DNA of 64,000 nucleotides from Propionispora vibrioides (lineage in GTDB: Bacteria > Bacillota > Negativicutes > Propionisporales > Propionisporaceae). The position numbers and the translations under genes were made by a program. Within the stretch, counting starts at the first letter, position 1. Every line of letters begins with the position of its first letter. The notes below the pieces were generated by a model, which worked only from the letters and a program-made list of their open reading frames with translations, made no database searches and had not been told where the DNA came from. This document shows, in pieces, positions 2,031-62,763 of this stretch. The DNA lies in contig NZ_FODY01000016.1 in assembly GCF_900110485.1 (NCBI RefSeq), forward strand, positions 32,295-96,294, written 5' to 3'.

Positions 2031-2092
2031 AAAACATAGAGGCCAAGCTCCATTCAGGAACTTGGCCTCTATGTTTCATAGTCGGACAAGTG
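2031..2092 (-). promoter_or_regulatory. Leader RNA copy 1 (P1-GA-P2-A-terminator), upstream of ABC ATPase
   Basis: On the minus strand P1 CUUGUCC is followed by GA, the P2 hairpin CUAUG/CAUAG, A, then GGCCAAG (P1 3' strand, pairing with one mismatch). GGCCAAG is also part of the 5' arm of a long terminator hairpin ending in a T-rich run. It lies between cysK and the ATPase gene, so it can also serve as the cysK terminator. P2 differs completely in sequence from most copies but keeps its pairing. Confidence 0.7.
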
Positions 2093-2142
2093 TGCAGCCC
2101 TATGTTTATCCAAAATGCTCTCTTCAAAATGAGGGTTGTTTT

Positions 2143-3069
2143 TTAATCTTGAAATAACACCGTGCTAATATAACGCTCGCCTGTATCAGGCAAGATAGCC
2201 ACAATTAATTGCCCGGCATGTTCCCGCCGTTTGGCCAGTTGCAGGGCGGCAAAAGCCGCTGCGCCCGAGGAAATGCCGACCAGTATGCCTTCCTGCCGGG
2301 CCAGGTCCCGTGCCGTTTCCACGGCTTCCTCATTTTTCACCTTATAAATCTCGTCAACAATATCCAGGTTCAGTACGCCCGGCACAAATCCCGCGCCAAT
2401 CCCCTGTATTTTATGGGCACCCGGTTTACCGCCGGAAAGCACCGGCGAATCAAAAGGTTCTACGGCAATAACTTTCAGCGTAGGTTTGCGTTTTTTCAGC
2501 ACTTCCCCGATACCGGTAATCGTTCCTCCTGTGCCCACACCGCCGATAATCACATCCACCCGGCCGTCGGTATCGGCCCAGATCTCTTCTGCCGTTGTTG
2601 CCCGGTGGATAGCCGGATTGGCCGCATTGTTAAACTGTTGGGGAATAAACGAGTTCGGTATTTGCGCCGCCAGTTCCTCAGCCTTGCGGACGGCGCCTTT
2701 CATACCCTCCGCTCCCGGGGTCAGCACCAGCTCTGCGCCATAGACCTTTAGCAGGCTGCGCCGCTCGGTGCTCATGGTTTCCGGCATAGTCAGGATCAGA
2801 CGGTAGCCCCTGGCAGCGGCAATAAAGGCCAGGGCGATGCCGGTATTGCCGCTGGTCGGTTCGATAATAACGGTATCCTTACCGATTAGCCCTTGCTCCT
2901 CCGCGGCTTTCAGCATGCTAAGACCAATCCGGTCTTTCACGCTCCCGCCGGGATTAAACAATTCCAGTTTGGCAACTACTTCGGCACTTTCGGCTGTTAC
3001 CACCTTGTTTAATTTAAGCAGCGGCGTACCGCCGATCAGATCGGTTACACTATTCGCTATTTTAGCCAT
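2143..3069 (-). CDS. cysK: Cysteine synthase (O-acetylserine sulfhydrylase)
   Basis: PLP enzyme that makes cysteine from O-acetylserine and sulfide in the cytoplasm. The PLP lysine lies in GGSVKDRIG near residue 40, the substrate loop is TSGNTG near 72, and the phosphate-binding glycine loop is GVGTGGTITG near 180. Length (308 aa) is typical. The ATG at 3069 is chosen over an in-frame ATG 15 bp upstream because GGAG sits 8 bp before it. It is the last gene of the NifK/NifD-like pair A transcription unit (23 bp after the NifD-like stop), which fits capture of sulfide released by that reductase. That link is inference. Confidence 0.93.
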   Translation of the reverse strand: MAKIANSVTDLIGGTPLLKLNKVVTAESAEVVAKLELFNPGGSVKDRIGLSMLKAAEEQGLIGKDTVIIEPTSGNTGIALAFIAAARGYRLILTMPETMSTERRSLLKVYGAELVLTPGAEGMKGAVRKAEELAAQIPNSFIPQQFNNAANPAIHRATTAEEIWADTDGRVDVIIGGVGTGGTITGIGEVLKKRKPTLKVIAVEPFDSPVLSGGKPGAHKIQGIGAGFVPGVLNLDIVDEIYKVKNEEAVETARDLARQEGILVGISSGAAAFAALQLAKRREHAGQLIVAILPDTGERYISTVLFQD

Positions 3070-3092
3070 ATTCCCACTCCTCATTTCTTTGT

Positions 3093-4598
3093 TCAGGCAT
3101 TGCTTTCATCAATGTACGAAAAAGCATCCTTCTCATACCAGTCGTCCCGGTACGGCAGGCGGATATTTTGCCCCAGACTCCGGTTAAACGCCGGATTCCG
3201 GAGAATTCTGGCCAACCGGCGGGCAAATTCAAATACGCCGGCATACCCCAAAAAGAGCTGGCTCTGGTGAAAAAGAGGAATAACGGGAATACCCTGTTTG
3301 GCGGCCCAGGCATTGGTGCCCACATGGCCGACATACACATCGGGTTTCAGCCTGTGTACCAGGTTTGCCATTTCAAAGGGCTGCCCGGTAGCGACATTAA
3401 AGGGAATCTGCTGGATAGCCTCCTGTTCACCCAGCATTTCATCGCCGAATTGATCATAATGGTAGGCCCGCAGCCCAATGACTTCCAGCCCTAAATACTG
3501 GAGCAGTTCGGCATTGGCCACGACACGGATTTCCCCGCCGCCGACCAGCACCCGTTTGCCCTTGAACAACTCCCGGTAAGGGGCTAGGGCTTCTTCCAAC
3601 TGCCTGACCTCCTGATCAATAAACCGCGCTGCCTCTTTTTCCATACCAAAAAATTCGGCAATGTCCTGAATCCAGCGATTGGTGTATTTTACACCGATTG
3701 GAATGGTCCGGAGAATAAAGGGAATATGGTATTTCTCTTTCAGATGTTCAACAAAATAGTCGTCATGGGTCGCGCAAATACTTACATTTAAGGCCGCTTC
3801 AGTCGCTTTTTTAAAATCCTCCGGATGAGCATAACAGGGCAGGATGTTGAGATTCAAATCCAGCGCCTGCAGCAGCCGTACCAATTCATATTCGTCAATG
3901 CGGCTCATGGAAGAAACATTTAATACGTTAACCGTGCGGCTGATGCGGTACTTTTCCAGAAATATTTCCTGTTCATCCCGCTCCAGCCGTTCATCGACCG
4001 GATCAGGTTCAATCAAATTGCGCAATATGCCGTGATAGACGGCGTCGTAGGCGCTGGCCATAATTTTCGTTTTAAAGCCTTCACAATGGACCGGCACAAT
4101 TTTGGCCTTTACTTCCTTTTGCACCTGTTCCACCACACTGTCGACATCATCGCCGATAATGGCCGGCACACAACTATTTACAATGATAATGGCGCTGGGG
4201 CGGAATTCCTGTTCAGCATGTAAAATAGCCTCACGCAAATTGTCTTCGCCACCGTTAATAACTTCGGCTTCTCTTAAATTGGTATTCACCCAGATCAGAC
4301 CCCGGGCACTGCTATCGCGCAGTTGCTGAAACCCCTTGTTAATGCCCGCCTGCGCCAGACTGCCGCCACCGCAGCCCACCGGACCATGAACAATCACCAC
4401 GGCATCGCGGATGGTATTTAAAATCGCCAGGCTTAAATTCAACTGACAGCCCTGAGTCTGGGCGAATTTCCGTTTGATCCCGTTGAGACAACCCTTTTGT
4501 GATTGATCTACCAACCGGCCGCTCGGTCCACCGTAGGCATTGCAGGCCTTTAAGCGGTCCTCGCGCACCGGGGGCGCTTTTTCCTGTATATAATCCAT
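3093..4598 (-). CDS. Nitrogenase-like component 1 alpha subunit, pair A
   Basis: NifD/NifE-superfamily protein of 501 aa that would pair with the NifK-like protein encoded just upstream (18 bp). Cysteines at 51, 76 and 143 match the P-cluster ligands Cys62, Cys88 and Cys154 of A. vinelandii NifD. Cys275 matches the cofactor ligand Cys275 (SICATHDDYF). The position of the FeMo-co ligand His442 appears to be Leu (QLFLGYAG). It lacks the GSITG-x-GT N-terminal block shared by the other three D-like proteins, and its gene follows the K gene, so pair A is the most divergent. By family it should be an electron-accepting reductase fed by a NifH-type protein; a C-S bond substrate is inferred from the adjacent cysK. 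Confidence 0.85.
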   Translation of the reverse strand: MDYIQEKAPPVREDRLKACNAYGGPSGRLVDQSQKGCLNGIKRKFAQTQGCQLNLSLAILNTIRDAVVIVHGPVGCGGGSLAQAGINKGFQQLRDSSARGLIWVNTNLREAEVINGGEDNLREAILHAEQEFRPSAIIIVNSCVPAIIGDDVDSVVEQVQKEVKAKIVPVHCEGFKTKIMASAYDAVYHGILRNLIEPDPVDERLERDEQEIFLEKYRISRTVNVLNVSSMSRIDEYELVRLLQALDLNLNILPCYAHPEDFKKATEAALNVSICATHDDYFVEHLKEKYHIPFILRTIPIGVKYTNRWIQDIAEFFGMEKEAARFIDQEVRQLEEALAPYRELFKGKRVLVGGGEIRVVANAELLQYLGLEVIGLRAYHYDQFGDEMLGEQEAIQQIPFNVATGQPFEMANLVHRLKPDVYVGHVGTNAWAAKQGIPVIPLFHQSQLFLGYAGVFEFARRLARILRNPAFNRSLGQNIRLPYRDDWYEKDAFSYIDESNA

Positions 4599-4616
4599 TG
4601 ATACCGGCTCCCTTCC

Positions 4617-62111: not shown

Positions 62112-62129
62112 CTTTCATGCTCCTTTCCC

Positions 62130-62290
62130 AGTGCTCCGCCAACTCTGAAAGTGCAATTACATTTGCGGGAATTTTTGCATAAGGCAGGGCAATGAAGGCG
62201 CGCCTATCGAACATAGGTAAACCGACGGCAACGAAACCTTACAGAAAAAGATCCGTGAAGAAATTGTAATTTCAGAGTTGATGAACCACT
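62130..62290. repeat. MITE family 3, copy A (161 bp)
   Basis: Ends AGTGCTCCGCCAACTCTGAAA and the inverted partner TTTCAGAGTTGATGAACCACT. Direct orientation relative to 63064. Lies upstream of larE. Confidence 0.85.
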
Positions 62291-62337
62291 CTTTGCGTCA
62301 CTTAAATCACAGGTATTTAAGTGACGCCAACTACTAA

Positions 62338-62637
62338 TCATCCTTCCTTTACCTGCAGTCCGGCTCCGGTCAATTTCTGACCCACCGAAGACCAGGAACG
62401 CTTGGCAAAAACCAGAGGGACTCCTCTTAGCTTGGCAAGCTGCTTCACATTCTGCGCCGTATTGTGATTGATGTAATCGGTCAACACAACAATCAGACGA
62501 GTGGCTTTCGGAATGTTGAATTTTTTCTTATCCGCCGCGTTCCTACCTGTAATATGTTCAATATGATGAATGCCTAATTCCTGCAACTCTTTCTCAATTC
62601 TTCCGAGATTATCGGCGCCAATAATTAATACCGACAT
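62338..62637 (-). CDS. DUF2325 domain protein
   Basis: 99 aa, start ATG at 62637 with AGAGG 8 bp upstream. Rossmann-like small domain (MSVLIIGADNLGRIEKELQELGI; VVLTDYINHNTAQNVKQLAKLRGVPLVFAKR), matching DUF2325, whose function is unknown. It is preceded by leader RNA copy 20, so it is a regulon member. Confidence 0.8.
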   Translation of the reverse strand: MSVLIIGADNLGRIEKELQELGIHHIEHITGRNAADKKKFNIPKATRLIVVLTDYINHNTAQNVKQLAKLRGVPLVFAKRSWSSVGQKLTGAGLQVKEG

Positions 62638-62703
62638 CTTTCTCACCTCTTTACATATTGGTCATTCGCTTATGATCAAAACGGCAGTGCCTCTCTGATC
62701 ATA

Positions 62704-62763
62704 TAAAAAGCCGGAATGATGACAATGTCATTCATTCCGGCCTCCGGTTATCCAGTCGGTCGT
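62704..62763 (-). promoter_or_regulatory. Leader RNA copy 20, upstream of DUF2325 gene
   Basis: Minus strand: CGACC-GA, P2 CUGG/CCGG (loop AUAA), A, GGCCG pairing with CGACC (one mismatch); GGCCGGAATGA opens the terminator closed by TCATTCCGGC and TTTTTAT. A TTGACG box at about 62850 may be its promoter. Confidence 0.75.

Follow-up and report, generated by a model that had tools for sequence, protein, structure and literature searches.

A 64,000-nucleotide stretch of the Propionispora vibrioides genome (contig NZ_FODY01000016.1; below, the window) carries twenty copies of a short leader RNA, a small hairpin that in nineteen of them runs into an intrinsic terminator. The genes behind the copies serve mostly sulfur acquisition, judging by their annotation. 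We find that this element tracks the DUF2292/YezD protein family across distant bacteria. Because the two co-occur almost perfectly, we regard YezD as the likely regulator: the elements are probably the binding site of YezD/DUF2292, and YezD-dependent antitermination is predicted to turn on the operons when sulfur is short. The sensor is likely a protein of this family, rather than a metabolite alone. A preliminary description of the window, drawn from the letters of the DNA, had reported the twenty copies as an undescribed leader RNA that defines a sulfur regulon. This finding is real and wider than was stated, and the link to YezD is new.

Re-reading the minus-strand intergenic regions for the order P1-GA-P2-A-P1' followed by a terminator recovered all 20 elements between positions 2031 and 62761. 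All of them lie on the minus strand, and each is co-oriented with the genes downstream of it. The outer helix P1 is GGCU/GGCU with variants, and P2 comprises 4–7 bp capped by a variable loop. The hairpin measures 23–29 nucleotides (nt), with an apical loop of 3–11 nt. The GA/A internal loop and the U-G pair closing P1, both proposed earlier, describe most copies and not every one: GA is present in 17 of 20, with GG (25814), AA (15402) and CA (47427) once each, and P1 is closed on its inner side by U-G in 17 copies and by C-G in 3. Likewise, a terminator had been assigned to each element and is found in 19 of 20; 15308-15282 has none with a T tract. Four tandem pairs (6272/6061, 15402/15308, 23764/23646 and 25814/25701) reduce the 20 elements to 16 leaders.

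A strict structural scan of the window detects 15 copies on the minus strand and none on the plus strand, and a second version gives the same numbers with none in 12 dinucleotide shuffles; these counts presuppose pairing and are not usable as evidence of covariation. The five copies outside the strict scan fail one criterion each, namely the GG, AA and CA loops of 25814, 15402 and 47427, the interrupted P2 of 23646 and the missing T tract of 15308. We then use a covariance model (R1) with 19 window copies as input, in which P2 and the terminator are paired and P1 is left unpaired. At E ≤ 10, R1 recovers all 20 window copies, the weakest being 15308 with 19.8 bits. At the same threshold it returns 19 extra window matches, 17 of them on the plus strand and mostly element terminators read in reverse, the best scoring 28.2 bits. 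The E-values of R1 are rough, and searches of more than 40 genomes ran with stricter filters.

The elements lie close to promoters. A strong sigma-70-type promoter (at least 9/12 hexamer matches) is located within 110 nt of 12 of the 20 elements, versus 25 of 400 random stretches. Of the eight elements lacking one, four are second tandem copies. The distance from the end of the -10 box to P1 is 18–30 nt in 9 of the 12 strong-promoter leaders and 55–77 nt in the other three. The hairpin is therefore nearly the whole sensor in most of these leaders.

To describe the pairing beyond the window, we ran R1 on 100 chosen loci, the window copies among them, aligned the best 150 of 165 matches and collapsed these to 126 distinct rows. 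P1 and P2 together show 79 double-change cells versus 8.6 in shuffles, and their cells are paired in 91.1% versus 85.1% after shuffling and at most 53.7% after sliding. The inner half of P2 is poorly aligned (70.5% paired). The terminator helix contains 206 double-change cells, though the terminator had been modelled in R1. Covariation in the wider alignment is thus strong, and it includes P1, which was not modelled; the earlier statement that the sequence varies while the pairing holds is borne out. In the internal loop, the A and the G of the 3' side are each invariant (126/126), and GA occurs in 116 of 126 rows.

In the 19 window copies with a terminator, the 5' arm of the terminator includes the P1' strand, as in AGGCUAAAG...CUUUAGCCUUUU. 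In 121 of the 126 rows, both P1 and the 3' arm of the terminator are possible partners of the inner three bases of P1'. Since one strand is common to both structures, hairpin and terminator are mutually exclusive, and this conserved alternative pairing is the signature of a switch. The mean free energy in the same 19 copies (15308 excluded) is -6.3 kcal/mol for the hairpin and -21.6 kcal/mol for the terminator. The free hairpin being weaker by about 15 kcal/mol, the terminator should form by default.

The element is found widely, in and outside the class of P. vibrioides. R1 detects it in 35 of 60 genomes, our own included (E ≤ 1e-3), and in 77 of 300 genomes of the class, representing 37 of 97 genera (E ≤ 1e-4). 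Scanning the exact consensus pattern over a collection of 84,980 species gave 55 stretches, at least seven of which are chance matches without a terminator. These stretches include Sporomusa, Pelosinus, Propionispora, Heliobacterium mobile and chlorum, and Deltaproteobacteria such as Candidatus Adiutrix, a group of termite-gut symbionts.

YezD follows the same distribution. The family (PF10055) is present in 36 of the 60 genomes and in 34 of the 35 with the element, the exception (G043) having one weak element match. Among the 300 genomes of the class, YezD accompanies the element in 76 of 77, and the exception (G173) is 58% complete. Three genera (g5, g23 and g40) contain some genomes with both element and YezD and others with neither. 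We took 33 of the 55 pattern stretches, which lie in 31 genomes: YezD is encoded in all 24 with a terminator-bearing match and in none of the seven with a chance match. Twelve of these 24 belong to other classes, two being Heliobacterium and ten Deltaproteobacteria. R1 run on 30 of the 31 genomes agrees, with YezD in 23/23 with the element versus 0/7, and lists up to 37 matches per genome. At least two YezD domains are encoded in 73 of 76 element genomes, versus 19 of the 29 that have YezD but no detected element. As controls, DUF2325 is present in 27/35 element genomes and 7/25 others, ANTAR in 34/35 and 20/25, and CAT_RBD in 15/48 and 2/32.

Gene order places the element next to yezD in several lineages. 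In 51 distinct YezD loci, the strict scan locates an element downstream of yezD, at most 400 nt away, in 14 and upstream in 2. The order in Candidatus Adiutrix is yezD, 33 nt, element and a cysK-like gene. In a plasmid record of Cytobacillus spongiae, which belongs to a class not used in finding the YezD link, a SAM (S-adenosylmethionine) riboswitch (86.6 bits) is followed by a single-domain yezD, the element and cysH. Here the element starts at the yezD stop codon, has P2 CUAG/CUAG and scores 26.4 bits (E 2.4e-4) with R1; the genes after it are cysH, a permease gene, sat, cysC and a sulfite reductase gene. Single-domain YezD queries match 14 plasmid records, and among the six examined a Niallia record has a weak element beside yezD (17.8 bits, E 0.03). 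The tandem YezD protein has no match in the plasmid records, and the Cytobacillus YezD has none in phages. The order yezD, element, target resembles that of licT and bglG, where a regulator gene, a conditional terminator and the target are known to follow one another.

The yezD gene of the window (14811..15227, minus strand) encodes a 138-amino-acid protein with two DUF2292/YezD domains, a predicted RNA-binding antiterminator. It lies behind the tandem elements 15402/15308, scores 50.8 bits over two stretches against a Pfam cut-off of 22 for PF10055, and is 95% identical to a YezD of Propionispora hippei. The two domains, A and B, occur fused or in adjacent genes; two adjacent small genes encode them in Heliobacterium (L220/L243 and L221/L244) and at G000:C16:18793-19134. 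Across 78 YezD sequences, G48, Q55, G105, K124, R126 and a C-terminal G.GI are invariant. AlphaFold2 predicts a helix-strand-strand arrangement twice, with pLDDT (predicted local distance difference test) of about 90 or more in the two domains and 78 overall. Sequence searches of solved structures with DUF2325 and YezD gave nothing useful.

We compared the element with known RNA classes and antitermination systems. Rfam 15 gives no match in the window at the gathering threshold. A permissive Rfam search gives four window matches at chance level, of which the two over an element, TD-2 (E 1.9) and mir-556 (E 0.64), are far below cut-off. A T-box motif was not found in the window with up to two mismatches allowed. 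The earlier judgement that the element belongs to no known class, being neither SAM-I, SAM-II, SAM-III nor T-box, agrees with these searches. S-box (SAM-I) and T-box leaders likewise control sulfur or amino-acid genes by transcription attenuation; we reject this identity on the lack of an Rfam match and of a T-box motif, and in Cytobacillus the true SAM riboswitch upstream of yezD is separate from the element. Among the matches listed in a search of open-access literature by titles and abstract starts, no publication deals with this RNA or with a mechanism of YezD.

One close likeness is to LicT, SacT and BglG. LicT is a small dimeric regulator, its gene often lies just upstream of the target, and its RAT (ribonucleic antiterminator) hairpin overlaps the terminator. 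The element is also a short hairpin that overlaps a terminator, with a shared strand in 121 of 126 aligned copies, and its regulator is predicted to be a small dimeric or tandem-domain protein whose gene often lies just upstream of the target. The RAT hairpin, however, has two internal loops whereas the element has one, GA/A, and its regulon concerns sulfur where those of LicT and BglG concern sugars. A CAT_RBD antiterminator is rejected on its distribution (see the control counts above); the domain is absent in the element-rich genomes G008, G020, G033, G035, G037, G044 and G048, in both Heliobacterium and in all ten Deltaproteobacteria searched. ANTAR proteins also act by protein-dependent antitermination, as predicted for the element, at hairpins that overlap the terminator, and these hairpins have hexaloops with A at position 1 and G at position 4. 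No such hexaloop occurs in 186 scanned element copies, 14 of which have 6-nt loops. ANTAR genes are spread over 54 of 60 genomes, largely irrespective of the element, and we reject ANTAR on both counts.

We propose the following sequence of events. Behind the promoter, RNA polymerase would transcribe the hairpin, and a choice between hairpin and terminator would follow. By default, in the absence of active YezD, P1' would join the terminator and transcription would stop. A pair of YezD domains (fused A and B, the products of two adjacent genes, or a homodimer of single-domain proteins) may bind the UGA/AGG internal loop and stabilize P1-P2 as RNA polymerase passes. P1' would then be unavailable, the terminator would be prevented and read-through would result. 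The sulfur signal may enter through the amount of YezD, through a bound sulfur metabolite, or through both. As the yezD gene of the window stands behind two elements, it would be subject to positive feedback.

Several observations weigh against this proposal. YezD could co-occur with the element merely as a member of the regulon, like DUF2325. Among the 105 genomes of the class with YezD, 29, in 10 genera, have no element match at E ≤ 1e-4; laxer filters give weak matches (E ≤ 0.02) in 13 of these 29, versus 3 of 11 YezD-less controls. No element stands beside yezD in 35 of the 51 distinct loci by strict scan, or in four of the six examined plasmid loci. The P values and co-occurrence counts ignore phylogeny, the 31-genome and 300-genome sets share some genomes, and the comparison of candidate regulators covers four families (YezD, DUF2325, ANTAR and CAT_RBD). 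The predicted YezD fold has no significant match in the PDB and no link to an RNA-binding fold, an absence that shows nothing.

The hairpin might instead be a minimal metabolite riboswitch, in which a sulfur metabolite at the UGA/AGG loop picks hairpin or terminator and YezD is a mere member of the regulon. The conflict between hairpin and terminator is compatible with any ligand, and the near-invariance of the loop bases fits such a site. A hairpin of this size with about five conserved positions and a variable loop, however, leaves little room for a specific pocket, and the -10 box is too close to P1 in 9 of the 12 strong-promoter leaders to add much more. Nor does a riboswitch predict near-perfect co-occurrence with YezD across phyla, and we consider it unlikely. 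Slightly less probable still is that DUF2325 or another RNA-binding protein is the antiterminator, with YezD as a conserved effector of the regulon. Regulators often control themselves, elements lie upstream of DUF2325 in 19 of 30 loci, and the co-occurrence analysis extends to only four protein families. Set against this, 8 of 35 element genomes lack DUF2325 and 7 of 25 without the element encode it, CAT_RBD is absent in 33 of 48 element genomes, and ANTAR, present in all but one of 35, also occurs in 20 of 25 others. On its co-occurrence, DUF2325 is rejected as the regulator, and we retain it as a rival. One more reading takes the hairpins for plain terminators or scattered repeats that no dedicated regulator controls. 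We consider it very improbable, for although 19 of 20 end in intrinsic terminators and the window does contain repeats, P1 covaries with P1' though no terminator needs that upstream strand, the targets are mostly sulfur genes, and the sequences diverge while the pairing is kept.

The regulon, as read from annotation, is mostly one of sulfur acquisition in the window, which is partly shown for other phyla too, in keeping with the sulfur regulon first proposed. All window elements are on the minus strand, and their coordinates include the terminator where there is one. Nitrogenase-like genes form one group of targets. AGCU-GA-UUAGUU..AACUAA-A-GGCU (54942..55006) precedes the pair 53368-54915/51990-53375, and GGUU-GA-CCGG..CCGG-A-GACC (50374..50442) the pair 48801-50282/47501-48988. 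The tandem UGCU-GA-UCAG..CUGA-A-GGCU (6211..6272) and GACU-GA-UCAGUAU..AUACUGA-A-GGCA (5998..6061) stands before a further pair and a PALP enzyme of the cysteine-synthase type. UGCU-GA-UUAGUU..AGCUAA-A-GGCC (14642..14704) precedes NifH (13679-14554), and AGCU-GA-UCAG..CUGA-A-GGCU (13436..13489) precedes NifB (12083-13393) and an NMT1-type ABC (ATP-binding cassette) transporter. The window contains four Oxidored_nitro pairs, one NifH and one NifB, the latter two above their NCBIfam cut-offs. Five of the Oxidored_nitro pair proteins were scored and are far below all NCBIfam cut-offs for nitrogenase component 1. Heliobacterial relatives of the nitrogenase-like genes have been assigned to methylthio-alkane reductase and sulfur assimilation (PMC9147875). 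Control of these genes by the element would fit sulfur acquisition rather than nitrogen fixation.

Transporters form a second group. The tandem GGCC-GA-UCAG..CUGA-A-GGCU (23705..23764) and AGCU-GA-UCGGUCU..AGACAGA-A-GGCU (23584..23646, with interrupted P2) precedes a MetI/MetQ-type transporter. GGCU-GA-UUAG..CUAA-A-GGCC (33938..33999) precedes an amino-acid-type ABC transporter (33857-30880), and GUCC-GA-CUAUG..CAUAG-A-GGCC (2031..2087) an ABC transporter (1099-1983/2-1084). GGCU-GA-UCAG..CUGA-A-GGCU (36488..36545) lies before a YeiH-like protein (35079-36431), and the tandem GGCU-GG-UCAU..GUGA-A-GGCU (25756..25814) and GGCU-GA-UCAU..AUGA-A-GGCU (25639..25701) before a porin-like SLH-domain protein (23942-25345). 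GAGCU-GA-CUAG..CUAG-A-GGCUC (61168..61230) stands before phosphotransferase system EIIA/EIIB/EIIC genes and a RuBisCO-like protein. Enzyme genes follow GACU-GA-UCAG..CUGA-A-GGUC (51820..51878; a Cys_Met_Meta_PP enzyme), GGCU-CA-UCAG..CUGA-A-GGUC (47364..47427; an alpha/beta hydrolase, 46347-47147) and GGCU-GA-CCAA..UUGG-A-GGUU (45761..45825; ThiF, JAB and sulfite-reductase-like genes, which we take to be an HcyS-type operon). The tandem before yezD consists of AGCU-AA-UCAG..CUGA-A-GGCU (15340..15402) and the degenerate GGCU-GA-UCAG..CUGA-A-GGCG (15260..15308), the copy without a T tract.

The remaining element of the window, GACC-GA-CUGG..CCGG-A-GGCC (62705..62761), precedes the DUF2325 gene (62338..62634, minus strand). 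One or two elements lie within about 250 nt upstream in the 19 DUF2325 loci counted above, our own genome being among the 30, and this arrangement marks DUF2325 as a second uncharacterised protein of the apparent sulfur regulon. In the same genome, a second DUF2325-type element lies before an apparent broken DUF2325 remnant (L049, about 6030-6516, minus strand).

Over the 4.43-Mb genome, R1 gives 50 matches at E ≤ 10, part of which are reverse complements or chance; inspection leaves about 20 real copies outside the window. Their targets, by Pfam and NCBIfam, include a PALP enzyme, homocysteine synthase, a class III aminotransferase with NMT1-type ABC genes, a second NifH-type protein, a TonB receptor, TonB/ExbBD genes and ABC transporters. 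At L050 (3204-7188), an element precedes a major facilitator superfamily transporter and then a glycyl radical enzyme that matches (2S)-3-sulfopropanediol dehydratase with 1556 bits. Targets without a clear sulfur role are a URO-D protein, an alcohol dehydrogenase (with a Cys/Met enzyme next to it), two nitroreductase-family proteins, a Lar_N protein, a gene with no assigned family and a chemoreceptor that follows a broken DUF2325. Outside the class, eight downstream genes were named: a sulfate-binding protein and CysT pass the cut-off, while a truncated cysteine synthase, a sulfonate-type binding protein, an ABC ATPase, a NifB-like protein, a bacillithiol-type deacetylase and an MtaA-like methyltransferase score below it.

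We notice further features of the window. The sulfur island also contains a sigma-54 activator (37648-39411, minus strand) close to a DUF6905 gene; we saw no element ahead of the activator. On the plus strand, 26092-30797 encodes a sensor kinase, a FeeM-like N-acyl amino acid synthase (whose cNMP-domain match does not reach the cut-off) and a B12-binding radical SAM protein. An intergenic repeat of 184 nt occurs in three copies (13479-13662, 47172-47355 and 57379-57562), the latter two with 79% and 82% identity to the first; one copy overlaps the start of element 13489. Its ends resemble inverted repeats, and it looks like a miniature inverted-repeat transposable element. A 161-nt direct repeat (62130-62290 and 63063-63223) and a 65-nt inverted repeat (20564-20628 with 62907-62971), both between genes, are probably other small mobile repeats.

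The YezD of the window is a distant relative of OscA, a sulfur-starvation protein of Pseudomonas with a Shewanella homolog. A weak match places both in the DUF2292 superfamily. The OscA model, however, is a single domain of 60 positions, and YezD proteins fall far below the OscA equivalog cut-off: the window YezD scores 24.4 bits against NF033785, where the cut-off is 85, and is not an OscA equivalog. According to two reports, oscA inactivation makes Pseudomonas corrugata sensitive to chromate, the protein is of unknown function, and oscA lies in one transcription unit with a sulfate-binding protein gene (PMC2996968; PMC3596284). Bacillus subtilis yezD is listed as unknown in two other reports (PMC6385201; PMC10714963), the first of which records that deleting the gene did not reduce survival in deep starvation (PMC6385201). 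We tentatively suggest, at somewhat less than even chances, that YezD/OscA is an old and widespread family of RNA-binding antiterminators for sulfur starvation. In Negativicutes, heliobacteria, Adiutrix-like Deltaproteobacteria and Bacilli, its tandem or paired domains would grasp the GA/A hairpin, and the OscA phenotype of proteobacteria would reflect the same kind of RNA control.

If YezD acts on the element as we propose, both the RNA element and the protein family would be new to transcription antitermination. YezD/DUF2292 would gain its first molecular function, and possibly so would OscA, with its ties to sulfur starvation and chromate tolerance. The nitrogenase-like reductases of these anaerobes would be tied to sulfur acquisition by their regulation, which would make their substrates testable.

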